NCBI GenBank assembly: GCA_021796135.1
Contig: JAJYOQ010000122.1
Coordinates: 1-9,981, forward strand
Direction of reading: 5' to 3'
DNA length: 9,981 bases
From: Bacteroidota bacterium
GTDB taxonomy: Bacteria > Bacteroidota > Ignavibacteria > Ignavibacteriales > Ignavibacteriaceae
This document shows, piece after piece, positions 1 through 9,981 of this stretch (position 1 is the first letter of the stretch; every line of letters starts with the position of its first letter). The notes below the pieces were generated by a model, which worked only from the letters and a program-made list of their open reading frames with translations, had not been told where the DNA came from and made no database searches. A program made the position numbers and the translations under genes.

Positions 1-1289
1 GTTTGAGATAATTCGTTTCCTATACATAGGATAGGTATCTTATACATTTCAGCAAGCATTGCATAATGCCGGATCCATATATAATAGTAATCAAAAAATT
101 TATTCCAATCAGATTTATTATCCATTCTTATCTCCCCGGGCCACCCATGTTCAACCCAAATATGGGGTTTTAACATTACAACAAAATTTAATTTTAAAGA
201 GGATTCCTCAAGAAAAATAAGGCTTTCATCATTCTCTGCAAATGCAGATTGCCAGAATCTAAGCGGTTCCGGTTTACTTGGATCGGACATTGAGGTAAAT
301 GGCATTATTGAAATTGCATTCACTCCGATTTGCTTTAATGCCTTTAATGACTGGTAAGATTCCCCCGAGAGATACCCGTTATAAATGTCATAGCCAACAT
401 GTGCATAGGAAATACCTTTTAAATATCCAAAGGATTTGCGCAGGAAATTATTTTTTTCTAAGTATATATTCCGCTTATAGGTTTTAGATAGATTAGAAAG
501 GTATGAGAGCCATTCAATGTTTAATTTCTTGATCTGAAATTTATAGGGAGACCAATTTGCATACTTAATCATTAAATTTTTAACACCCATTTTTTGTATT
601 AAGAACTCAACAAATGTACCGGCAAGAGGGTCTGTGATCAAATAGGATTCTGTTTTAGACTTTTGATTATCGAGCAAATTCTTTAATGCAGGAACATTAT
701 CAGAAAGGAATAATTTGCTAGCCCAATATTTATAGTCAAAACCTCTCCAACTTCTTGCAAAATAAACGGACATTCCTGTCTCTAAGAATTTATATTTTGG
801 TTGTCCGTAATTTTTTCGAAGTAATAATATTACATCTTGAGTAAAATCATCACCTTTAATAAAATTATTTATTACAGAATGTACTGATTCATTTGATTCT
901 TCATAATTTGAAATACTTGTATTGTTTGTAATCAAGCCTTTTTCTTCAAAAGAGTTATATAGATTATACTGAATGTGAAAGGGCTTTAAAGGTTTTCCCA
1001 GCTTATTTTGGAGATAACCAACTGACTTTGCATTTAATAAAGCAAGTTCTTGTATTTCCGATTTCCTAATTTCAGAGGAGTGCCTGATATAGGTATAATT
1101 ACTAGTGACCAAGACCGTATCATTTAGATTTTCATAAATAATTCCGGATTTATTTATTACATTTTGCTTATTTTTTATACCTTGTTTTGCAATACCATTA
1201 TTAGTTGAAAACGACAAATAAATTACAACAGAAAAAATAAAAGCAAGCAAATAAATTATAGCTCTATGGTAAAAATGATATTTTTTCAT
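1..1289 (-). CDS. GH113-like glycosidase-type protein with degenerate peptidase-MA-like N-terminal region (partial, 3' end missing)
   Basis: This frame is open from an ATG at 1289-1287 to the left edge, giving 429 codons and no stop. Residues about 9-27 are a hydrophobic signal/anchor following MKKYHFYHR, so the protein is probably exported or tethered to the membrane. Residues about 100-260 resemble the peptidase-MA (gluzincin) fold: FLETGMSVYF (168-177) matches the usual 'EGLAxYF' block and is followed by a W-A...P-L..L pattern. However, the expected HExxH reads HSVIN (136-140), so that part should not be a working protease. From residue 290 a TIM-barrel begins: KGISYAH (291-297), LKALKQIGVNAISIMPF (315-331), LKPHIWVEHGWPGEI (373-387) and CIGNEL (422-427). 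This order is typical of GH113 beta-mannanase-like proteins, where the Glu of 'GNE' (here E426) is the acid/base. The second catalytic Glu would lie outside the window. No Shine-Dalgarno is visible. It diverges from the porin operon. The family call is from memory of motifs; the substrate is unknown. Confidence 0.8.
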   Translation of the reverse strand, partial: MKKYHFYHRAIIYLLAFIFSVVIYLSFSTNNGIAKQGIKNKQNVINKSGIIYENLNDTVLVTSNYTYIRHSSEIRKSEIQELALLNAKSVGYLQNKLGKPLKPFHIQYNLYNSFEEKGLITNNTSISNYEESNESVHSVINNFIKGDDFTQDVILLLRKNYGQPKYKFLETGMSVYFARSWRGFDYKYWASKLFLSDNVPALKNLLDNQKSKTESYLITDPLAGTFVEFLIQKMGVKNLMIKYANWSPYKFQIKKLNIEWLSYLSNLSKTYKRNIYLEKNNFLRKSFGYLKGISYAHVGYDIYNGYLSGESYQSLKALKQIGVNAISIMPFTSMSDPSKPEPLRFWQSAFAENDESLIFLEESSLKLNFVVMLKPHIWVEHGWPGEIRMDNKSDWNKFFDYYYIWIRHYAMLAEMYKIPILCIGNELSQ

Positions 1290-1367
1290 TATAGAATATA
1301 GAAATGATTGTAAAAACTGTTAGTATCTCTAATCAAATGCAGTAATTTATTTACTAAAAATTCTAAA

Positions 1368-1387
1368 AATGTCGGTTAATTGACAAA
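1368..1387. promoter_or_regulatory. Candidate operator upstream of the porin operon (imperfect inverted repeat)
   Basis: AATGTCGGTTAATTGACAAA is an imperfect inverted repeat (TGTC....TTGACA) and matches the perfect palindrome at 9522-9541 at 15 of 20 positions, including AATGTC, TTA and TTGACA. Two 8-bp half-sites with a 4-bp spacer is a Crp/Fnr-like geometry. It lies about 140 bp before the GTG of the porin gene. The TTGACA could instead be an ordinary -35 box. The link to the Crp-type protein at the right edge is an inference. Confidence 0.35.
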
Positions 1388-1512
1388 AGTTAATAAATGT
1401 TAGTCTTATTTTGATAATTATAAAATATCTTTTAAATAAAATTAATTGTTTCCGAATAATTTGTTTATTCAATGAAATATTATATATCGATATAAATTCA
1501 TTTTTTTATTAT

Positions 1513-1518
1513 AAGGAG
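1513..1518 (+). promoter_or_regulatory. Shine-Dalgarno that fixes the GTG start of the porin
   Basis: AAGGAG lies 7 nt before the GTG at 1526. The signal peptide begins directly after this codon and no in-frame ATG lies nearby, so the GTG is the start. Confidence 0.8.
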
Positions 1519-1525
1519 TTCATTT

Positions 1526-2662
1526 GTGAATAAATTTTCCCTTTTTTCAGTCATTTGCTTAATATTTATGACTTTTTCAATAATTAGCTATAGCCAGTCA
1601 ATAAATTATGAGCCAGGAAACGGTTTGCATATTAATTCAAAAGACAATAAGTTCGATTTTCTTTTCAGCGGATATATCAATACTATTTTTGATTACCACA
1701 ATATAAACCAAAATGGAAGTATCGATAATTCATTCTCAGTACACAGAGCAAGAATAGATTTAGGCTTTAATTATTTAAATGATTATAATATGTTTTTTGA
1801 GTTTGATGCAGCAGGTCAAAGGACAGAAATGGTTTTGGCACAAATTCAGGCTCGAATCATTTCAACTAATTATATTTTAGCAGGCAAATTTATAAATCCA
1901 TTTTCGCCTGAAAATAACCGTTCTACAAGCGGACTGAGTACAATAGAGAGATATTCCGGATTGAATTCAATGTTTCTTCTTCCTGCACTCGATGCTCAAT
2001 TTGGATTGATGTACTATGGGACAGCATCAAACTTTGACTATTATTTGAGCCTAACAAACGGCAACGGGCAAGCTTCGCAAAATATTAGTGAAAATAATAA
2101 CAGTAAAGACGTGACAGTAAGAATTGGATATACCACTTCTAAATATTTCAAATTCGGTTTAAGTCTGGACTACACGAAAGAGGAACTGCAGCAATTAAAT
2201 TTAGTTGACCACACTTTTGAAAGCTTTAATACGGCTAATGTGTATGGACGGCGCCTGGGATATTTGGGCAATTTTAAATTCGAGAATAATCCCTTCCTGT
2301 TAAGAGGAGAAATTTTTCAATACAATTTTAATGATAATTTATCATCTTTTAACGAAGTAAAAAATTTTCTCGGAGGTTATTTTGAAATTGGTTATTTCCT
2401 GTTTGGGGATAGAAATAACGGTGTTCAGACCATTGGAAGGTTTGAGACAGCACGATACGGAAAGACAGTTCAAGGATTTGAAGGTCCAACAGTTTTGAAC
2501 AGCTATTTGTTAGGCACTAATTGGTATGCTAATAAAGTATTTAATTTTCAGCTAAATTTAATTTATGAAGATGCTAATAGGAATTCATTATTACCATTAA
2601 CAAGATTAACCGATAAAAATAATGAATTTGAAATTCTTTCTACCGTTCAGTTAAAATTTTAA
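1526..2662 (+). CDS. OprP/OprO-type outer-membrane porin
   Basis: This is a 378-residue outer-membrane beta-barrel protein of the phosphate-selective porin O/P type (OprP/OprO), judged by overall pattern. Residues 1-23 are a signal peptide: MNKF, a hydrophobic core, then SYS before Gln24. The remainder is alternating aromatic/polar beta strands, for example FLFSGYINTIFDY near the mature N-terminus and VHRARIDLGFNY a little later, which are the usual first strands of this family. Further strands follow at regular spacing to the C-terminal ILSTVQLKF, whose terminal Phe is the classic outer-membrane assembly signal. It starts with GTG behind a strong Shine-Dalgarno. It is the first gene of the operon and lies 16 nt before the symporter, so it probably admits the solute that the symporter imports. 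The family name does not prove phosphate as substrate; arsenate, other anions or small sugars are equally open. Confidence 0.85.
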   Translation: MNKFSLFSVICLIFMTFSIISYSQSINYEPGNGLHINSKDNKFDFLFSGYINTIFDYHNINQNGSIDNSFSVHRARIDLGFNYLNDYNMFFEFDAAGQRTEMVLAQIQARIISTNYILAGKFINPFSPENNRSTSGLSTIERYSGLNSMFLLPALDAQFGLMYYGTASNFDYYLSLTNGNGQASQNISENNNSKDVTVRIGYTTSKYFKFGLSLDYTKEELQQLNLVDHTFESFNTANVYGRRLGYLGNFKFENNPFLLRGEIFQYNFNDNLSSFNEVKNFLGGYFEIGYFLFGDRNNGVQTIGRFETARYGKTVQGFEGPTVLNSYLLGTNWYANKVFNFQLNLIYEDANRNSLLPLTRLTDKNNEFEILSTVQLKF

Positions 2663-2678
2663 TTAAAGAAGGAGAGTT

Positions 2679-4052
2679 ATGTCTACAGTTCTTTATTGGC
2701 AATGGGGAGTTATACTTTTTTCAAGTACGATGTTATATTTTGTTTCACCAAAAGTGGTAAGCAAAGAAAGTTTTTTTAAGGGTGCATCTAAAGAATTGAA
2801 AAAGCCCGGTTATGCAATGCTCACCTTTAGTTTAGTTATATCGTGGATATTTGCAAAATCGGTTACGAATGTTTCAAATCTGGGGATGCAATTCGGATTT
2901 GTCGGAGGAGTGGCGTATGCAACTTATTATTTATCGTTTTTAGTTGCCGGGATTGTAATCTATAATCTAAGGACGAAAACAAATATAAGCAGCTTTCATG
3001 AATTCTTAGAGAAAAAATTCGGAAGAGGCGCAATTATAGCATTTACAATAGTAATTGCTATAAGATTATTAAATGAAATATGGTCAAACACAGAAGTTAT
3101 AGGATCATATTTTGGAGCAAACGGTTCCCCCCAATACATTGCTTCAATAATAGTATTCACCGGATTAACATTAGCTTATACTTTAAAAGGCGGTTTCAGA
3201 ACATCAATGGTCACGGATTTGATTCAGATGGGCTTATTATCCGTTTTACTTTTTATAGTTCTAAGTTTAATAATTCCCAGCAGAGGATCAATTACCCCAT
3301 TTATAAAAACAGGCAATTGGACAATGGCAGGAGGAGTTGACTTAATTTTAGTAGCTCTCATCCAGATTTTTAGTTACCCTTTTCATGACCCTGTTTTAAC
3401 TGACAGAGGATTTTTATCAGATCCAAAAACAACTTTGAAAAGTTATATAACTGCAACGATAATAAGTTCAATTATAATTTTGCTTTTTAGTCTGGTGGGA
3501 ATTTACGGAAGTTTTATCGGACTAAAAGGTGAAGCGGCAGTCGAAGTATCTAAATCCTTCGGTATTTTTACATTAGTTGTAATGAACTTTATTATGGTCA
3601 CATCAGCTTCCTCATGCATTGATTCCACTTTTTCGTCAGTTTCAAAATTAGTAACGATAGATTTGGGTAAAAAAGAAAATGCAACAATATCCCGAGGCAG
3701 ATGGGCAATGATATTAACGGCAATTGGCGGAACAATTCCATTAATTTTTTCGCCTAGCATTTTATCTGCTACTACTTTAAGCGGAACAATGGTTCTTGGT
3801 CTTGCACCGGTTTTCATATTGTGGAAAGTTCCGGCACCAAAAATATCATTTCACTTAGCTTTATGGACAGGAGTAATTGCCGGAATTGTTTTAGTCTTCG
3901 GATTACTTCCAAAATTTTTATATATAGGAAATGGAAGCTTTGCTGACTTGCTTGCAATTAATGTATATGCAACACTAATTATATTTATATTATACTTGGT
4001 TCCTGTCTTATTCAGTAAAAAAGAAAACATGATATCTGTAATTGAAATTTAA
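2679..4052 (+). CDS. Sodium:solute symporter (SSS/SLC5 family)
   Basis: This 457-residue inner-membrane protein has about 12-13 hydrophobic segments. The SSS signature is visible as AYTLKGGFRTSMVTDLIQMG (166-185), close to the family pattern 'GGlraVvwTDviQ'. QIFSYPFHDPVLTDRGFLS (229-247) corresponds to the conserved loop before TM7. TSASSCIDSTFSSVSK (308-323) is the TM8 segment, where paired Ser/Thr residues normally form the Na2 sodium site. Family members use the sodium gradient to import sugars, amino acids, carboxylates or other small solutes; nothing seen here fixes the substrate. The length is slightly short for the family (usually 480-550). GGAGAG lies just before the ATG. It is sandwiched between the porin and the radical SAM gene with 16-nt gaps on both sides, so it is almost certainly co-transcribed with them and may supply the substrate of the downstream enzymes. 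Confidence 0.88.
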   Translation: MSTVLYWQWGVILFSSTMLYFVSPKVVSKESFFKGASKELKKPGYAMLTFSLVISWIFAKSVTNVSNLGMQFGFVGGVAYATYYLSFLVAGIVIYNLRTKTNISSFHEFLEKKFGRGAIIAFTIVIAIRLLNEIWSNTEVIGSYFGANGSPQYIASIIVFTGLTLAYTLKGGFRTSMVTDLIQMGLLSVLLFIVLSLIIPSRGSITPFIKTGNWTMAGGVDLILVALIQIFSYPFHDPVLTDRGFLSDPKTTLKSYITATIISSIIILLFSLVGIYGSFIGLKGEAAVEVSKSFGIFTLVVMNFIMVTSASSCIDSTFSSVSKLVTIDLGKKENATISRGRWAMILTAIGGTIPLIFSPSILSATTLSGTMVLGLAPVFILWKVPAPKISFHLALWTGVIAGIVLVFGLLPKFLYIGNGSFADLLAINVYATLIIFILYLVPVLFSKKENMISVIEI

Positions 4053-4055
4053 TTT

Positions 4056-4059
4056 GAGG
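4056..4059 (+). promoter_or_regulatory. Weak Shine-Dalgarno supporting a TTG start of the radical SAM gene
   Basis: GAGG lies 9 nt before TTG at 4069. The cluster-binding cysteines begin at residue 25 and the first internal Met is only at residue 99, so the TTG is needed to encode a complete enzyme. Confidence 0.55.
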
Positions 4060-4068
4060 CTGGCTTAA

Positions 4069-4959
4069 TTGAAAAATAATTTTCCCGAAATAAAGCTTAC
4101 AACCCTTGACAATCTTTGGTTTCAGGTAAGCGGCACCATTTGCAATATTGCCTGTAAGCACTGCTTCAATAATTCAAGTCCTGTAAATCGCGCTTTTGAA
4201 TTTTTAACATTTGATCAATGTAAATCTTATATAGATAATGCTGTTAGAATTGGTGTTAAGGAATTCTACTTCACCGGCGGTGAGCCGTTTGCAAATAACG
4301 AAATTCTAAAAATTTTAGAATATTCTCTCAGATATGGACCGGCGACCGTATTAACGAATGGAATGCTAATAAAAGAAGGTACTGCCGAAAAGTTAAATGA
4401 AATACAGTCGGCTTCAATATACACCTTAGAACTGCGGATCAGTCTAGACGGATACAACGAAGAGATGAATGATAAGATTAGGGGATTTGGTGTTTTTAAA
4501 AAAGCACTTAAAGGCATAAAATTTTTATACGAAAATAATTTTCTTCCTATTATCACAATAACTAAGACATGGGAGGAATCTGAAGAAGATAAGATTTTAA
4601 ATGAGTTTAAGGAGTTATTATATAAGAACGGTTATAAAAGACCCCGATTAAAGATACTACCTTCAATAAAGATCGGGCAAGAGGTACTTCGTACAAAAGG
4701 TTATGAAAACTATGAATATGTTTATGAAGAAATGCTTCAAGATTATGACACAAGCCAGTTAATTTGTTCAAACAGCAGACTTGTAACAAGTAAAGGCATC
4801 TATGTTTGTCCTATACTTCTTGAATCCGAAGATTCAAAGTTAGGGGACACATTATTAGAGTCATCTAAAAGTTATAGACTATCGCATCAAGCATGCTATA
4901 CTTGTTATTTATACGGAGCAATATGTTCAAATTTTTCATCGGGGAGGCGGGATGCTTAA
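4069..4959 (+). CDS. Radical SAM enzyme with SPASM/twitch-like C-terminal cysteines
   Basis: This is a 296-residue radical SAM protein. CNIACKHC (25-32) is the CxxxCxxC motif that binds the SAM-cleaving [4Fe-4S] cluster. FTGGEP (68-73) is the SAM-binding GGE motif, and SLDG (125-128) is a further core barrel motif. The C-terminal third carries C233, C247, C276, C279 and C286 in a C-x13-C...CxxC-x6-C layout, with SKGIYVCP resembling the SPASM 'dG.v.pC' strand. An auxiliary Fe-S cluster is therefore likely, as in enzymes that modify peptides or small molecules. The start is TTG. The stop overlaps the phosphoesterase gene by 8 nt, indicating translational coupling. It is too unlike typical ArsS (whose Cys motif is followed by HVDAGP-type sequence) to name. 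No small precursor-peptide gene is evident beside it. The reaction is unknown; the neighbouring flavoprotein and polyferredoxin could supply its electrons. Confidence 0.88.
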   Translation: MKNNFPEIKLTTLDNLWFQVSGTICNIACKHCFNNSSPVNRAFEFLTFDQCKSYIDNAVRIGVKEFYFTGGEPFANNEILKILEYSLRYGPATVLTNGMLIKEGTAEKLNEIQSASIYTLELRISLDGYNEEMNDKIRGFGVFKKALKGIKFLYENNFLPIITITKTWEESEEDKILNEFKELLYKNGYKRPRLKILPSIKIGQEVLRTKGYENYEYVYEEMLQDYDTSQLICSNSRLVTSKGIYVCPILLESEDSKLGDTLLESSKSYRLSHQACYTCYLYGAICSNFSSGRRDA

Positions 4960-5737
4960 AAAAATCGCTTTATTCGGAGGAGTATATAGTAATTATATTG
5001 CGCTTAAAGATGTAATCAAAGATGCACAAAAGAATAACGTTGATCAAATATACTGTCTTGGAGACTTAGGTGCATTTGGTCCAAATCCCGATAAGGTTTT
5101 CCCCATTTTAATTGAGAATAATATAAAAGTGATTCAAGGTAATTATGATAATTCAATCGGAAACGATTTAAATGACTGCCAATGCGGGTATACCGATCCC
5201 CGCGATAATTACTTTGCAAAATTAAGTTACGATTATACTTACAAGAATACCAGCAATGAGTTTAAGAATTGGATGAGAGCCCTTCCATCGGAATTAAAAA
5301 TAATTTTGGGGAAATACAATATACTTCTTTGCCATGGCTCTCCGAGAAAGACAAACGAATTTCTTTGGGAGACCACCACACCTACCCATTTTCTTGATAA
5401 ACTTTGTCGTGATTATAATTCTGACATCATTTGTGCTACTCACACCGGTATTCATTGGGATAGACAGTTAACCGGCGGTAAACATTTCATAAACGTAGGG
5501 GTAATTGGAAGACCTGAAAACGACGGTAGTCAAAATGTCGGCTATACGATATTAGAAATAGATAATGAAGATATAAATATTCAATATATAAAGGTTGAAT
5601 ACGATTACAATAAGTTAGCGCTTGAAATGAGGGAAGAAAAATTGCCTAAAGAGTTTGTAGAGACAATTATATCGGGATGGTGGACTACCTGCCTGGAAAT
5701 TTTACCTGCAAAAGAAAGAATACGCGGGAAATATTAA
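4952..5737 (+). CDS. Calcineurin-like metallophosphoesterase-family protein with altered motif I
   Basis: This 261-residue protein follows the YfcE/calcineurin-like phosphoesterase fold. Visible motifs are GDLGAFGP (37-44; metal ligand D38), GNYD (63-66; N64), CHGSPR (127-132; H128) and ATHTGIHW (162-169; H164, with H168 beyond). Motif I, normally DxH in 'SDIHGN', reads GGVYSN (9-14), so both the Asp and the His that ligate the first metal are replaced by Gly and Tyr. One metal site may survive, or the protein may bind rather than hydrolyse. Other distinctive blocks are DCQCGYTDPRDN (75-86), TNEFLWETTTPTHF (134-147) and GWWTTCLEILPAKER (242-256); the last resembles a tail I recall from similar proteins in other phyla. 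The start ATG overlaps the radical SAM stop and has GGAGG 4 nt upstream. The partner is probably the radical SAM product. Family membership is secure; activity is doubtful. Confidence 0.85.
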   Translation: MLKKIALFGGVYSNYIALKDVIKDAQKNNVDQIYCLGDLGAFGPNPDKVFPILIENNIKVIQGNYDNSIGNDLNDCQCGYTDPRDNYFAKLSYDYTYKNTSNEFKNWMRALPSELKIILGKYNILLCHGSPRKTNEFLWETTTPTHFLDKLCRDYNSDIICATHTGIHWDRQLTGGKHFINVGVIGRPENDGSQNVGYTILEIDNEDINIQYIKVEYDYNKLALEMREEKLPKEFVETIISGWWTTCLEILPAKERIRGKY

Positions 5738-5740
5738 ATA

Positions 5741-5746
5741 GAAGGA
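5741..5746 (+). promoter_or_regulatory. Shine-Dalgarno that decides the start of the FAD oxidoreductase
   Basis: GAAGGA lies 8 nt before ATG 5755. It follows the phosphoesterase stop at 5737 and rules out the in-frame upstream ATG at 5677, which would overlap that gene and add a non-homologous 26-residue stretch before the Rossmann motif. Confidence 0.8.
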
Positions 5747-5754
5747 AATATAAT

Positions 5755-7083
5755 ATGCACCTAGTAATAATTGGAAACGGAATTACCGGTATAACGACGG
5801 CTCGATATGTAAGGAAACAAAGTGACATGAGAATCACAATTATTTCCAACGAGTCTAAATATTTTTTTTCACGTACAGCCTTGATGTATGTATATATGGG
5901 ACACATGAAATGGGAAAATCTAAAACCCTACGAAGATTGGTTCTGGGATAAGAATAAAATTGAACTTTTATTTGGTAAGGTAACTTCAATCGATTCAGAT
6001 ACAAAGACACTTTATATTGACAATAATATAAGACTTGGATATGATAAACTTGTCATTGCGACAGGTTCAGAGACTAATAAATTCGGATGGAAGGGACAGG
6101 ATTTAAAAGGCGTGCAAGGACTTTATTCAAAACAGGATTTGGAGAGTCTTGAAGAGAATTCAAAGAATGCCCATTCAGCTGTTATTGTCGGGGGAGGATT
6201 AATAGGTATAGAACTTGCGGAAATGCTCCATACGAGAAATATTGAAGTCACTTTTTTAGTACGGGAAAAACTTTATTGGAATAATATCCTTCCGGATGAA
6301 GAAGCCGCAATTGTAAGCAGACATATACTTGAACATGATATGCAATTAAAGCTAGGTACTGAGTTAAAAGAAATTTTACCCGATGCTAATGGAAGAGTAA
6401 GGGCTATATTAACCAATAAAGATGAAGAAATCCCATGTCAATTAGTTGGTTTAACACCGGGAGTTCATCCAAATATAGATTTTTTGAAAAATACAAAAAT
6501 TGAAACCGGAAGAGGTGTCTTAGTCAATGATTACTTTGAAACAAATGTTTCTGATATATATGCAGCAGGTGATTGTGCAGAAATTAAATCTTCTGCTGAT
6601 GGAGAAAGGAACAAACTGGAACAGCTTTGGTACACAGGAAAAATGCAGGGGAAAGTGCTTGCAAAAAATATTTTAGGAGAAAAGGAAAAATACGATAGAG
6701 GAATTTGGTACAATTCTGCAAAATTTTTAGATATTGAATACCAGACCTATGGATTTGTCAGCTCTTTACCACGCATTGGGGAAGAATCATTTTATTGGGA
6801 GCATTCTTCGGGAAAGATTTCTCTCCGAATTGTATTTTCATCAAAAGACAGGTCAATAATCGGAGTAAATGCTTTTGGAATGAGACTCCGTCACAAATTA
6901 TTTGAACTCTGGATAAAAGAGAAGAAAACAATAGAATATGTAATAGAAAATTTACGTTCTGCAAATTTTGATCCTGAATTTTACAAAAAGCATGACCGGG
7001 AAATACTTGGTAAATTCAATCAGGAAAATCCCGGGAAAAAGCTTGTTATGAACAAACAGTTATTATCAAATATTAATTTATAA
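5755..7083 (+). CDS. FAD/NAD(P)-dependent oxidoreductase (pyridine nucleotide-disulfide reductase-like fold)
   Basis: This 442-residue flavoprotein begins directly with an FAD-binding Rossmann motif, LVIIGNGITGITTARYVRK (GxGxxG at 7-12). It continues with the IATGSE block (101-106), a second Rossmann motif for NAD(P)H, VIVGGGLIGIELAEML (143-158), and the C-terminal FAD motif IYAAGDCAE (268-276). This layout matches rubredoxin-reductase, nitrite-reductase large-subunit and NADH-oxidase type enzymes. There is no redox-active CxxC or CxxxxC near the FAD motif, so it is not a true disulfide reductase. More likely it passes electrons between NAD(P)H and an external acceptor. The C-terminal 120 residues (about 320-442) are a separate region rich in aromatic and charged residues. 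The gene starts 17 nt after the phosphoesterase and ends 10 nt before the polyferredoxin, which is the obvious electron partner. The substrate is unknown. Confidence 0.87.
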   Translation: MHLVIIGNGITGITTARYVRKQSDMRITIISNESKYFFSRTALMYVYMGHMKWENLKPYEDWFWDKNKIELLFGKVTSIDSDTKTLYIDNNIRLGYDKLVIATGSETNKFGWKGQDLKGVQGLYSKQDLESLEENSKNAHSAVIVGGGLIGIELAEMLHTRNIEVTFLVREKLYWNNILPDEEAAIVSRHILEHDMQLKLGTELKEILPDANGRVRAILTNKDEEIPCQLVGLTPGVHPNIDFLKNTKIETGRGVLVNDYFETNVSDIYAAGDCAEIKSSADGERNKLEQLWYTGKMQGKVLAKNILGEKEKYDRGIWYNSAKFLDIEYQTYGFVSSLPRIGEESFYWEHSSGKISLRIVFSSKDRSIIGVNAFGMRLRHKLFELWIKEKKTIEYVIENLRSANFDPEFYKKHDREILGKFNQENPGKKLVMNKQLLSNINL

Positions 7084-7093
7084 TTAGAAGAAT

Positions 7094-8416
7094 ATGAATA
7101 CGATAAAAACCGAACCTATTAAAATTTATAAACAAAGTTTAACTATTGAGATATCCAAAAAGATTGGTACAGCTGCAATTGGTCTAGGTTTTCTTTTATT
7201 TCTTGTAAGCTTGACAGGGTTTACTAATAATCAACCTCTTTTATTTTTCTTTTTAAGCTTTGGACTAATTGTTTCCGGTTCCACCCTTTATTTTATATCT
7301 CAATTAAAGGAGGCGCCGGCAGGAATAAAAAATAATAAAATATTTTTTAATGAAATATCCTCCAAAAAGACTGCAGCATGGATTTTGGGTGTTGTAATAA
7401 CCTTATTTTATATTTTACTATACTGGTTCCCCGACACAATTCAAAACTGGATAAATTTAGTTAATCCGCTGAGTTATTGGATTAGAGGAAAATCCGCCGA
7501 TAAATGGTTTATGTATGGAACATTTTACACTACGGCAGTGATCATTATGGGAATCAGGATGATACTTAAATACAGACATAATCGATATCAAATTCTTAGA
7601 TCTATTTCTGTCAGTATTTTTCAATTAGGATTTTCATTTATTATTCCGGGAATACTTTTAAGACTGAACCAGCCGGAATTTTATTTCAATTATTTCTGGC
7701 CCTTAAAGTTTCAATATCTTTTTCCGGATGAAATAAAATATTTAACTTCGAACGGAGATGCACTAGGATACTTCATGGTATTTTGGGGAATCGCTATGTT
7801 TTTAATAGCCACGCCCATACTCACATATTTTTTTGGAAAGCGCTGGTATTGTTCCTGGGTTTGCGGATGCGGCGGGCTTGCGGAAACTGCAGGAGATCCA
7901 TTTAGGCAGAACTCAGACAAATCCCTTAAAGCATGGAAACTGGAAAGGTGGTCAATTCATTCTGTTTTAGTATTTGTAGTTATAACAACCGGATTGCTAT
8001 GGATTAACTCTGCAACGGGAGGCAAAGAACTAGGAAGTATATCACAAACATTTGCTGATTGGTATGGTTTTGTAATCGGAGCATTATTTTCGGGAATTAT
8101 TGGTGTTGGATTTTATCCCATTTTCGGCAGCCGGGTTTGGTGCAGGTTCGGCTGTCCCATGGCTGCGACACTAGGAATTCTGCAAAAACATTTTTCAAGA
8201 TTCAGAATTACAACAAACGGAGGACAATGTATTTCATGCGGAAACTGTTCAACTTATTGTGAAATGGGTATAGATGTAAAATGGTATGCACAAAGAGGTC
8301 AAAATATAATTCGTTCTTCATGTGTAGGATGCGGTATTTGTTCTGCCGTGTGCCCAAGAGGTGTTTTAAAGCTTGAAAATCTTCCAACTGAAAATAGATA
8401 TAACAAAGTTGATTAA
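7094..8416 (+). CDS. Membrane-bound 4Fe-4S polyferredoxin, NapH/NosR-like
   Basis: This 440-residue integral membrane protein has about eight hydrophobic segments (near 24-43, 48-68, 95-112, 140-158, 169-190, 224-247, 288-304, 324-344). Juxtamembrane cysteines C253, C257 and C259 (WYCSWVCGCG) and C350 and C354 (VWCRFGCPM) correspond to the CxxxCP pair of NapH/NosR/CcoG-type proteins. Two ferredoxin-like 4Fe-4S motifs follow near the C-terminus: CISCGNCSTYC (379-389) and CVGCGICSAVCP (410-421). NapH-type proteins move electrons between the quinone pool and a redox partner. No N-terminal FMN-binding domain of the NosR/RnfG type is seen. It follows the flavoprotein by 10 nt, so the two may form a membrane electron-transfer unit feeding the radical SAM enzyme or a reductase. 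The usual CP after the first pair is replaced by CGCG, an added cysteine. The Shine-Dalgarno is weak (AGAAG). Subfamily and partner are inferred. Confidence 0.87.
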   Translation: MNTIKTEPIKIYKQSLTIEISKKIGTAAIGLGFLLFLVSLTGFTNNQPLLFFFLSFGLIVSGSTLYFISQLKEAPAGIKNNKIFFNEISSKKTAAWILGVVITLFYILLYWFPDTIQNWINLVNPLSYWIRGKSADKWFMYGTFYTTAVIIMGIRMILKYRHNRYQILRSISVSIFQLGFSFIIPGILLRLNQPEFYFNYFWPLKFQYLFPDEIKYLTSNGDALGYFMVFWGIAMFLIATPILTYFFGKRWYCSWVCGCGGLAETAGDPFRQNSDKSLKAWKLERWSIHSVLVFVVITTGLLWINSATGGKELGSISQTFADWYGFVIGALFSGIIGVGFYPIFGSRVWCRFGCPMAATLGILQKHFSRFRITTNGGQCISCGNCSTYCEMGIDVKWYAQRGQNIIRSSCVGCGICSAVCPRGVLKLENLPTENRYNKVD

Positions 8417-8480
8417 TTTGGATGATTATCAATAGATTTACTAACAAAATATATACATTAATAGCATATTTAAGCATATA

Positions 8481-9239
8481 ATGAAGAAAATTTTTCAGGG
8501 ATTAAAAAGTACAGTTGTAAAATTAAATACCTCGGAAAAAACTAATAAATCAATTATTTCAATAATAATATTTATCCGATACCCCGAGAATGGGAAAGTT
8601 AAGACTCGTTTAGCGTTAACAATCGGAGACAATTATGCGAAAGAATTTTACAAAATTATTGCGCAGAGTATTGTCGCTGAAGTTAAAAGAGTTAAGAATT
8701 CAAAGATTTATTTATTCTCTGCCGAAATAGAGGCAACCGAGAAAATCAAGAAATGGTTAAAAGGAAATTTTCTTGTTACTAATCAGGAAGGAGAAGGTTT
8801 AGGTACGAGAATGTCAAATGCATTTTTGAGTTTATTCTCTTCCGGCACAAAGAAAACTTTACTTATCGGAACGGATATACCAGATATCAGCAAAGAAATA
8901 ATCGAAAAGGCATCTGAAATGCTAGATATATACGATATTGTAATTGGCCCTGCTTTAGATGGAGGTTATTATTTGCTTGGAATGAAAAAACTGTATAATA
9001 CTTTATTTGAGAAAATTCAATTTAGTGTCAATACAGTATTATCTCAGACCATTCTAGAAGTTGAAAAATTAGGTTTAAGTTATTTTATACTCCCTAAACT
9101 TCAAGATATCGATACGGAAGAGGATTTAAAGAATTGGCTTAATAATGGGAGCAGATCAAATTTAAAAAAAGAAATTAACCTTATATATAACTTAATAAAC
9201 GGTAGAGTACCGCAAAGGTGCATTCATTGCGGGGAATAG
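8481..9239 (+). CDS. CofC/MobA-like transferase, DUF2064/TIGR04282 type (rSAM/selenodomain- or arsenosugar-associated)
   Basis: This 252-residue cytoplasmic protein has the nucleotidyltransferase/glycosyltransferase-A fold of the DUF2064/TIGR04282 group. Motifs in order are FIRYPENGKVKTRLA (31-45; NTP-binding loop), EGEGLGTRM (103-111), LIGTDIPDIS (128-137; acidic metal-binding), GPALDGGYYLLGM (157-169) and LQDIDTEEDL (207-216). This family was first described as 'rSAM/selenodomain-associated transferase 1' and is now often labelled arsenosugar-biosynthesis glycosyltransferase. Here too it lies beside a radical SAM gene, which fits. Oddities: the homologous domain begins only near residue 25, so there is a short Lys/Thr-rich N-terminal extension, and the end carries a two-cysteine tail, RCIHCGE (246-252), outside the fold. 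The gene is 64 nt after the polyferredoxin and has no visible Shine-Dalgarno, so it may be less tightly coupled to the operon. Donor and acceptor are unknown. Confidence 0.87.
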   Translation: MKKIFQGLKSTVVKLNTSEKTNKSIISIIIFIRYPENGKVKTRLALTIGDNYAKEFYKIIAQSIVAEVKRVKNSKIYLFSAEIEATEKIKKWLKGNFLVTNQEGEGLGTRMSNAFLSLFSSGTKKTLLIGTDIPDISKEIIEKASEMLDIYDIVIGPALDGGYYLLGMKKLYNTLFEKIQFSVNTVLSQTILEVEKLGLSYFILPKLQDIDTEEDLKNWLNNGSRSNLKKEINLIYNLINGRVPQRCIHCGE

Positions 9240-9242
9240 AAA

Positions 9243-9485
9243 CTATAGCATATTTTTTCTCTTTGAAATCATTGATAAAAGATTTAATTCGTCAATATCA
9301 CCATATGAGAATAATTTATCATCTATTAGCAGCGCAGGTAAAATACTAATACCCTTATCATTATATTCTTTTTCATTTATTATATTTAAATAAACATCGG
9401 GATATCGCAGGGCAATATCTTTTAATTTAGCCTTTGCGCGAATACATGCCGAACAATTATTCGTAATAATTAAAGATAGTTTCAT
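9243..9485 (-). CDS. Small thioredoxin/glutaredoxin-like protein with CSAC motif
   Basis: This 80-residue protein has a minimal thioredoxin fold: first strand LSLIITN (3-9), redox motif CSAC (11-14) at the start of helix 1, and ILPALLIDD (48-56) carrying the cis-proline P50 opposite the CxxC. GDIDEL follows in the final helix. It resembles the small glutaredoxin-like/thioredoxin-like domains that reduce disulfides or carry electrons in the cytoplasm; no signal peptide is seen. It lies downstream of the Crp-type gene on the same strand (59-nt gap) and ends only 3 nt from the convergent transferase gene. The start codon lies inside an 8-bp inverted repeat (9480-9498) and no Shine-Dalgarno is visible. 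Possible roles are to reduce a partner in the cluster, possibly the cysteine tail of the transferase, or to report redox state; these are guesses. Confidence 0.75.
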   Translation of the reverse strand: MKLSLIITNNCSACIRAKAKLKDIALRYPDVYLNIINEKEYNDKGISILPALLIDDKLFSYGDIDELNLLSMISKRKNML

Positions 9486-9498
9486 TTTTTAAATGAAA
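9480..9498. repeat. Inverted repeat covering the start codon of the thioredoxin-like gene
   Basis: TTTCATTT-TTT-AAATGAAA has perfect 8-bp arms and a 3-nt loop. In the minus-strand mRNA the ATG would sit in the 3' arm of the hairpin. It is nearly all A·U, so it should be weak. Confidence 0.4.
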
Positions 9499-9521
9499 AA
9501 TAGGAAGGAAGTCATAAAAAA

Positions 9522-9541
9522 AATGTCAATTATTTGACATT
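9522..9541. terminator. Perfect 20-bp palindrome followed by a T-run: terminator of the Crp-type gene and/or Crp-type operator
   Basis: AATGTCAATTATTTGACATT has perfect 8-bp arms with a 4-nt spacer, beginning 3 nt after the stop of the Crp-type gene. Read on the minus strand the hairpin is followed by six further Ts (9521-9516), as in an intrinsic terminator, but each arm has only two G·C pairs, so the stem is weak. It resembles the site at 1368-1387 in front of the porin operon (15 of 20 positions), which argues for an operator; in that role it would sit upstream of the thioredoxin-like gene. Both roles may apply. Confidence 0.5.
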
Positions 9542-9544
9542 ATT

Positions 9545-9981
9545 TTAGATTGAAAGTTTCTTTAATTCATCAGGTTTCAAAATAATTAGCTTTTTTCGAT
9601 CAAAATTTATAATACCTTTTTCCCGAAGATCCGAAAGGAGATAATTAACTGTTTGTCTAGAACTGGCAGTGATTTCACCGATATCCTGATGTTTAAGGAA
9701 AGGTTTAATAAATATTTGTGCGCCCAATTCTTTTCCGTTTTTTTCAGCTAATCTTAATATAAAAGAAATAATTCTTTGATTGGCATCTTTAAAGACAAGA
9801 TCTTCGATTCTTTCCGAATAGCTTCGTAGTTTTAGTCCGATGAGCTTTGTCATTTTTAAATTCAATGAAGGGTTTTTATTTATAAAATCTGCAAGTTCAT
9901 TTTTATTTATTGCGCATATTAGGGAAGGTTCAATTGTAACAGCATAATCAGTTCTTTGTTCTTCTTCGAGATAAGCCATTT
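9545..9981 (-). CDS. Crp/Fnr-family transcription regulator (partial, N-terminus outside window)
   Basis: The 144 residues from the Met at 9979 are the end of a Crp/Fnr-type regulator; the frame stays open to the edge, so that Met is probably internal. The first ~25 residues are the last strands of the effector-binding barrel. Next comes the long dimerisation helix (about 30-62), then a winged helix-turn-helix with HQDIGEITASSRQTVNYLL (97-115) and the wing INFDRKKLIIL (124-134). The recognition helix reads SSRQTVNYLL: the Arg of E. coli CRP's RETVGR is kept, but the Glu is Gln and the second Arg is Tyr. The target should therefore differ from TGTGA or TTGAT. No Fnr-type cysteines are seen in the visible part, but the N-terminus that would carry them is missing. 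The effector is unknown. It is probably transcribed with the thioredoxin-like gene unless the palindrome at 9522-9541 ends transcription. Confidence 0.85.
   Translation of the reverse strand, partial: MAYLEEEQRTDYAVTIEPSLICAINKNELADFINKNPSLNLKMTKLIGLKLRSYSERIEDLVFKDANQRIISFILRLAEKNGKELGAQIFIKPFLKHQDIGEITASSRQTVNYLLSDLREKGIINFDRKKLIILKPDELKKLSI

Follow-up and report, generated by a model that had tools for sequence, protein, structure and literature searches.

What is made, or broken down, by a compact run of seven genes in a Bacteroidota bacterium of the family Ignavibacteriaceae? The genes lie on contig JAJYOQ010000122.1 of assembly GCA_021796135.1, the 9,981 nucleotides of which (positions 1 to 9,981, forward strand) were analyzed as a whole and are called the window below. 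At the centre of the run are the two genes with which this report is mainly concerned:

4069-4959, plus strand: radical S-adenosylmethionine (SAM) enzyme, abbreviated rSAM, with a SPASM/twitch-like C-terminus, 296 aa, core gene (Radical_SAM, 71.8 bits)
4952-5737, plus strand: metallophosphoesterase-fold protein, abbreviated MPE, kin of ars-operon (Car1-like) MPEs, 261 aa, core gene (PF12850 Metallophos_2, 42.4 bits; PF00149 Metallophos, 37.1 bits)

The answer that we tentatively favor, and rate at just short of an even chance, is that rSAM and MPE form a reductase/radical SAM module that makes an organoarsenical, probably by a route to the carbon-arsenic (C-As) bond that does not use ArsS. This answer is based on gene order, co-inheritance, gene fusions, residue patterns, and the association with arsenic genes; it is by association that arsenic enters the argument.

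The two genes are inherited together. Among 102 genomes of a planctomycete order, rSAM was detected in 20 and MPE in 22, and all 20 rSAM-positive genomes contained both. Among 82 genomes of the Calditrichota/KSB1 phylum, the respective numbers were 16 and 15, and 15 of the 16 rSAM-positive genomes contained both. The hypergeometric p values, uncorrected for relatedness, are 2.8e-19 for the planctomycetes and 1.6e-15 for Calditrichota/KSB1. Because genomes G001-G010 had been located via rSAM, only the further rSAM genomes, 19 from the planctomycetes and 11 from Calditrichota/KSB1, form the unbiased part of this comparison. In the Bacteroidota, searches of 146 and of 164 genomes yielded no rSAM genome beyond the same four, and MPE was found in 1 of 395 genomes, namely the starting genome. 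A first-pass annotation of the window, made from the sequence alone, had suggested a neighborhood search for conserved co-occurrence and had named independently scattered homologues as the opposite outcome; for the rSAM-MPE pair, co-occurrence was found and independent scattering was not.

Gene neighborhoods were compared for 40 rSAM loci from Bacteroidota, Calditrichota/KSB1, and Planctomycetota. Three loci were left out of this set (L007 and L011 are the contigs of L051 and L050, respectively, and L008, 5.5 kb long, breaks off within ArsM), and the 40 include close relatives (e.g. L085/L086, L088/L089, and L046/L050) as well as two loci, L049 and L050, from one genome. Both genes were present in 32 neighborhoods and shared a strand in 31; the exception is L077, where each strand carries one of them and several kb separate the two. 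The distance between the two genes was at most 242 bases in 24 of the 32 neighborhoods, and an ArsM gene lies between the partners in 7. As for the eight neighborhoods without both genes, L049, L051, and L074 end at contig edges, in L050 the detached other half of an rSAM lies beside MPE, and in L076, L080, L085, and L086, as also in L074, MPE was located on a different contig of the same genome. The distance matrices of rSAM and MPE are correlated (r 0.87 for 33 pairs, with 0 of 5000 permutations as high), a result that is also favored by the shared ancestry of the genomes.

Both domains also occur in one polypeptide. One planctomycete genome additionally encodes a 620-aa protein holding an MPE and an rSAM domain, which has 1440 matches; the best 120 all contain both Pfam domains and are 580-686 aa long. 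Nine of the fusion matches listed bear an organism name, eight of Alphaproteobacteria and one of SAR324. At L097 238-2732, the gene after a 620-aa fusion of MPE and radical SAM domains encodes a DUF3047 protein. In genome G530, the rSAM is instead fused to an FAD (flavin adenine dinucleotide) oxidoreductase, giving a protein of 734 aa; the oxidoreductase is of a type different from that in the window, and this type lies near rSAM in 18 of the 40 neighborhoods. The in-frame fusion of 734 aa was recorded at L040 (7120-9324) and L027.

The first-pass annotation had labeled the MPE a phosphoesterase homologue. A role in redox chemistry or arsenic binding is more likely for it than one as a phosphoesterase, because the first metal-site motif has been lost whereas no row departs from a Cys-x-Cys pair. 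Residues of MPE, and likewise of rSAM, were counted in 153 standalone alignment rows, comprising 33 locus rows (window included) and the 120 best database matches, and in 120 fusion rows; rows repeat among the 153, because the window's own rSAM is also among the database matches, and two comparison rows (L015b, the second Pedobacter MPE, and L018b) were omitted. Motif I, D-x-H, is replaced by G-x-Y (G10, Y12) in 153/153 standalone rows and in 119/120 fusion rows. The last His of the GHTH motif has become Gly (G166) in 153/153 standalone rows and in all 273 rows when the fusions are included. By contrast with these losses, Cys76-x-Cys78 is present in 153/153 standalone and 120/120 fusion rows. 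The remaining MPE residues of the rSAM-paired family are D38, N64, D66, H128, and H164, and every row has C247, within a WWxxC tail. In the fusions, which share the motif losses and keep the Cys pair, D66 is replaced by Glu. To judge from these residues, the losses fit a loss of two-metal hydrolysis, and the protein may have a hydrolase fold that now serves redox chemistry or the binding of arsenic. An ordinary phosphatase was rejected on the loss of motif I.

Kin of MPE are found in ars operons. Plasmid records matching MPE numbered 67, and in five of six that were examined the homologue lies in an ars operon, with ArsR and ACR3, ArsM, ArsH, or ArsC as neighbors; these five proteins are 31-37% identical to the window MPE. 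According to passages of PMC12124457, a metallophosphoesterase of ars operons resembles Car1, by which Rufibacter tibetensis reduces As(V), and shares Cys74 and Cys76, which are essential there. The Cys-x-Cys of L013, L015, and L017 lies at exactly Cys74/Cys76 and aligns with C76/C78 of the window protein. The pair is found in all five ars-operon MPEs, in one Roseomonas MPE, and in one cyanobacterial MPE; the gene of the latter (plasmid locus L018, 5004-5828) has folE, hemB, and another MPE-like gene as neighbors. In the tree, which has several long branches, the rSAM-paired MPEs and the fusions cluster together (96/88) and apart from the ars-operon MPEs, the rSAM-paired group itself is supported by 84/97, and the cyanobacterial protein falls on the ars side. 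The predicted structure of MPE (pLDDT, a model confidence score, 86.7) matches the SapH-like MPE group. None of the PDB matches listed for MPE is labeled Car1 or arsenate reductase, which is not evidence against such an identity, and a search of viral contigs with MPE yielded no relative.

The partner enzyme belongs to neither of the two radical SAM families with which it was compared for C-As bond formation. It has 296 aa, the radical SAM core motif CX3CX2C at positions 25-32, and five more invariant Cys in its C-terminus, which looks nearer to a twitch domain; full SPASM domains carry seven Cys. Identity with ArsS was rejected, as the window rSAM scored 54.6 bits against the ArsS model TIGR04167 (cut-off 300), with a match limited to the radical SAM core; the family members listed score about 40-65 bits. 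Identity with ArsL was rejected on size and Cys pattern, ArsL being known here from its published description, passages of which give 428 aa, CX3CX2C at 194-201, and just three conserved Cys (PMC8552651).

Arsenic genes accompany the pair in its relatives. In 11 of 16 Calditrichota/KSB1 genomes (G005, G007, G008, G009, G530-G533, and G582-G584), ArsM lies inside the cluster, and in G581 it lies on the MPE contig. A PHO4/PiT permease accompanies four of these clusters, which fits uptake of arsenic as well. For three cluster ArsMs that were scanned, the best model was the arsinothricin ArsM (373-378 bits, below the cut-off of 500), and seven aligned cluster ArsM rows have many invariant cysteines in common. 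Arsenosugar-type ArsM (NF038099) exceeded its cut-off in 13 of the 102 planctomycete genomes, and all 13 are among the 20 with the pair (p 8.3e-12). Among 40 pair-bearing genomes, the ArsM model PRK11873 was above cut-off in 20 and ArsS in 4, all of the latter from Calditrichota/KSB1 and none among the 20 from planctomycetes; absences of ArsM and ArsS are soft, because many of these genomes are metagenome-assembled and possibly incomplete. In 6 of the 40 loci, the genes close to the pair include one for an AhpD-like protein, which in L011 exceeds the TIGR04169 cut-off. TIGR04282 was above cut-off in the window, in L001, in L088, and in a Roseomonas plasmid (L128), and slightly below it in L120; the L001 protein carries a TIGR04283 domain ahead of TIGR04282, and both are above cut-off. 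An arsenic context such as the annotation had proposed to look for was recovered in relatives, with ArsM, a TIGR04169-type AhpD, and TIGR04282/TIGR04283. In the window, profile searches found no ArsM, ArsS, or SelD (SelD was looked for in the window only). The known arsenosugar pathway, consisting of ArsM and ArsS, is absent from the window, as neither gene is present.

The seven genes described in the annotation, on one strand and with short gaps, were confirmed with the domains as named; the open reading frames (ORFs) span 1526-9239 on the plus strand, and the intergenic distances are, in order, 16, 16, -8, 17, 10, and 64 bases. Apart from the two core genes, the window contains the following:

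1526-2662, plus strand: Porin_O_P-type outer-membrane porin, 378 aa (PF07396, 39.3 bits, cut-off 20.9)
2679-4052, plus strand: SSS-family sodium/solute symporter, 457 aa (PF00474, SSF, 24.3 bits, barely above the cut-off of 22.8)
5755-7083, plus strand: FAD/NAD(P)H oxidoreductase of the Pyr_redox_2 type, 442 aa (PF07992, 163.5 bits)
7094-8416, plus strand: NapH/MauN-like membrane polyferredoxin, 440 aa (Fer4 and Fer4_5 domains)
8481-9239, plus strand: TIGR04282-family CofC-like transferase, 252 aa (TIGR04282, 196.8 bits, cut-off 134)
9243-9485, minus strand: thioredoxin-like small protein, convergent, membership uncertain (PF13192, 23.4 bits, under the cut-off of 24.8)
9545-9979, minus strand: Crp/Fnr-family regulator, truncated where the window stops, membership uncertain (PF13545, 56.9 bits)

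Another Bacteroidota genome assembled from a metagenome (L001) contains porin, SSS symporter, rSAM, MPE, FAD oxidoreductase, NapH, and TIGR04282 in the identical order, with 59-88% identity; because all seven genes are repeated in the same order, the arrangement is beyond chance. The symporter is the most conserved of the seven, and the porins are 74% identical. The sequence of porin, symporter, radical, and redox genes is conserved in close relatives: in each of the four Bacteroidota relatives (L001-L004) the symporter gene precedes rSAM, the FAD gene sits between MPE and NapH in L001, L002, and L004, and L004 has a syntenic porin present as two ORFs. The four-gene core of the annotation (radical SAM enzyme, phosphoesterase, flavoprotein, and polyferredoxin) did not hold up, as the window-type FAD oxidoreductase and NapH adjoin rSAM in only 3 of 40 neighborhoods, all from Bacteroidota (L001, L002, and L004). 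Because L002 and L004 retain the five genes SSS-rSAM-MPE-FAD-NapH and L003 retains only SSS-rSAM-MPE, the conserved core is smaller than four genes and consists of rSAM and MPE, plus the symporter in Bacteroidota.

Several details of the window and its relatives were recorded. The window FAD oxidoreductase lacks a CxxxxC motif on inspection of its sequence; a second in-frame start of its ORF lies upstream at 5677, and 5755 was adopted because the flavoprotein domain begins there. The likeness of the polyferredoxin to NapH is by motifs only (54.0 bits against TIGR02163, under the curated cut-off of 213), and its cluster motifs are CISCGNCSTYC and CVGCGICSAVC. After NapH, the TIGR04282 position is taken by related proteins of unknown kind in L002 (14631-15080, 149 aa, without a Pfam match) and L004 (14499-14942, 147 aa). 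Both genomes keep the thioredoxin-like and Crp/Fnr genes after the end of the cluster and convergent with it (window 9243-9979, minus strand; L001 15177-16180), where they may include a regulator. At the other end of the window, an ORF at 3-1289 on the minus strand, divergent from the cluster and running off the window start, has a GH113-like C-terminal match (42.4 bits). No Rfam match and no tRNA were found in the window, scans of it for promoters and terminators performed no better than on shuffled sequences, and the symporter had no match among PDB sequences.

Outside the Bacteroidota, the flanks differ. The Roseomonas plasmid cluster has the order TIGR04282-DUF547-rSAM-rSAM-PhnD-PhnE-ABC-MPE, in which the second rSAM is the relative of the window enzyme. 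The flanks of the planctomycete pair are variable and include ApbE, LigT, and sigma-factor genes. An ApbE-family gene flanks the planctomycete rSAM in six loci (L006, L072, L078, L083, L085, and L086) and a LigT-like gene in the same loci except L078, one member of each having been scanned with Pfam for these labels. A gene for a SAM hydroxide adenosyltransferase was seen around the pair in L044, L045, and L089 (the L045 member was scanned).

From these observations, we infer a scheme that covers the substrate and its reduction, the C-As bond, the direction (toward synthesis), the flow of electrons, and what is produced. An arsenic oxyanion (arsenate) or a simple arsenical would enter through the porin and the symporter, a role that a PiT-type or PhnDE-type permease may fill in some relatives. 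The MPE-fold protein, with Cys76-x-Cys78 and one remaining metal half-site, would reduce pentavalent arsenic and retain it as a trivalent thiolate. The adjoining SPASM/twitch rSAM would then add a SAM-derived carbon radical to the arsenic, creating a C-As bond; it would work like ArsS or ArsL while being a member of neither family. Electrons would be supplied by the FAD protein and the polyferredoxin, and the product could be tailored by ArsM, TIGR04282, and TIGR04283 proteins where these are present. There is precedent for radical SAM enzymes forming C-As bonds, namely adenosylation by ArsS and transfer of a 3-amino-3-carboxypropyl group by ArsL, as described in passages of PMC12159101 and PMC8552651. 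The interpretation in the first-pass annotation (import of a small solute, its modification in a radical SAM step powered by the membrane redox pair, and attachment of a nucleotide or sugar) is partly supported: co-occurrence, the arsenic context in relatives, and the gene layout speak for it, and import of an organic solute and attachment by TIGR04282 are putative steps.

Several findings weigh against the proposed arsenic module. To our knowledge, no member of either family has been studied biochemically. The only arsenic-linked gene in the window is the one labeled TIGR04282, a family named by association, the model of which is a hypothetical equivalog; profile searches of the window revealed no ArsM, ArsR, or efflux gene, and the genome of the closest relative (G001) had no ArsM match better than 5.7e-5. 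In planctomycetes, 7 of the 20 pair-bearing genomes had no arsenosugar ArsM above cut-off, and three loci that were examined (L125-L127) showed no linkage of this gene to the pair. MPE and rSAM lie on separate contigs in five genomes (G603, G633, G644, G664, and G668). With regard to MPE itself, the rSAM-paired proteins fall outside the ars-operon group on the tree, and all five ars-operon MPEs retain D-x-H and GHTH; because both are lost in the rSAM-paired proteins, the activity of Car1 is not simply transferable to them. The argument from the Cys pair is weakened because the cyanobacterial plasmid MPE has it without ars neighbors, so that it also occurs outside ars operons, and because a second MPE of the Pedobacter ars operon lacks it.

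The module might instead act on a phosphorus or other oxyanion compound (a phosphonate, phosphite, or selenium compound), with generic functions for the arsenic-labeled neighbors, which we consider unlikely. Phosphate-related genes do occur around the pair: PHO4/PiT phosphate permeases are encoded in four Calditrichota/KSB1 clusters (L042, L044, L045, and L120), the Roseomonas cluster contains a phosphonate-type ABC transporter (PhnD/PhnE), which also counts against arsenic, and the window has a Porin_O_P porin. The MPE fold itself, the Cys pair of the cyanobacterial protein outside an ars operon, and a nearby Roseomonas flavoprotein (TIGR03169, Nterm_to_SelD, 214 bits, below the cut-off of 310) point in the same direction. 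However, arsenate travels through phosphate-type transporters, and PiT and Phn transporters therefore do not discriminate between arsenic and phosphorus; two ArsM genes elsewhere (L121 and L123) also adjoin a PiT permease. The ArsM genes inside the Calditrichota/KSB1 clusters and the confinement of the planctomycete arsenosugar ArsM to pair-bearing genomes argue for arsenic.

If arsenic is the substrate, the direction could be the reverse, a prospect that we find rather improbable. Porin and symporter would import an organoarsenical made by others, MPE would reduce it to the trivalent form, and rSAM would remove or rearrange the carbon group. Such uptake and breakdown would suit the porin and the Na+/solute symporter as lead genes in the window and L001, as well as the ArsM result for G001. 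It would also suit a Marinobacter adhaerens plasmid, in which an intact symporter, 45% identical to that of the window, follows a related rSAM gene (L129, 8791-9856); the record shows an interrupted rSAM reading frame, and the locus was taken only as a sign from the gene neighborhood. However, ArsM, TIGR04282/TIGR04283, and the TIGR04169-type protein with or beside the pair carry biosynthetic labels, and the PiT permeases of some Calditrichota/KSB1 clusters are of an inorganic-anion type.

Two further explanations are very unlikely. In a peptide or cofactor maturation system, the SPASM/twitch rSAM would modify a ribosomal peptide or a protein, perhaps MPE itself; a precursor peptide within the operon was rejected, the intergenic gaps being at most 64 bases. 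Nucleotide housekeeping, in which the radical SAM step would yield a nucleotide and MPE, as a phosphatase resembling Ap4A hydrolase, would act on it, is highly improbable in view of the replacement of motif I in the standalone and fusion rows and of the GHTH His in every row.

For the arsenic module, a more specific version can be formulated, which we regard as possible and on balance doubtful. In this two-component machine, an MPE turned arsenic reductase would hand trivalent arsenic straight to its rSAM partner; in a second large family, most named members of which come from Alphaproteobacteria, the machine would be one polypeptide. It would be widespread, reaching across Bacteroidota, Calditrichota/KSB1, Planctomycetota, and Pseudomonadota at the least, and in the absence of ArsS it would form the C-As bond of organoarsenicals that are new or resemble arsenosugars. 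Radical SAM organoarsenic chemistry is a known kind of system, and the rSAM-MPE pair itself has been little studied. Few routes to the C-As bond are named in passages of the review PMC12159101: methylation, ArsS, ArsL, and an EPSP-derived bisenarsan route. In literature searches, no title, abstract opening, or passage of PMC8552651, PMC12124457, and PMC12159101 described an MPE-radical SAM arsenic system. If the pair represents a further route, organoarsenic biosynthesis would be more widespread than counts of ArsS suggest, the planctomycete arsenosugar ArsM would gain a partner, a large unnamed protein family would gain a function, and there would be a case of a hydrolase fold remodeled for redox chemistry alongside a radical enzyme. 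A direct hand-over from reductase to radical enzyme, if shown, would exceed a mere variant of the known chemistry.

Comparison with known systems places the pair close to, and outside of, several of them. With ArsS of arsenosugar biosynthesis, the window rSAM has radical SAM chemistry and a proposed C-As bond in common, and the pair co-occurs with arsenosugar-type ArsM and lies near TIGR04282/TIGR04283; in contrast to ArsS, rSAM has an MPE partner, and the match is restricted to the core. ArsL of arsinothricin biosynthesis is likewise a radical SAM enzyme beside ArsM; as far as passages of its description go, it has a long N-terminal region before CX3CX2C and no further conserved Cys, whereas the window rSAM has neither feature. 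The SPASM/twitch enzymes SkfB, BlsE, SuiB, anSME, and MoaA share the fold and C-terminal cysteines with rSAM (five invariant ones in rSAM, seven in full SPASM domains), but are only 16-20% identical in alignments and differ in gene context. The Car1-type As(V) reductases, i.e. Car1 of Rufibacter tibetensis and Orf1 of Paraclostridium dentum, have the MPE fold and a Cys-x-Cys in the same place; Car1 was compared by description, the Cys74/Cys76 numbering being that of passages of PMC12124457. Compared with the five ars-operon MPEs, the rSAM-paired MPEs have lost D-x-H and GHTH, have gained a conserved WWxxC C-terminus, and form a separate group on the tree.

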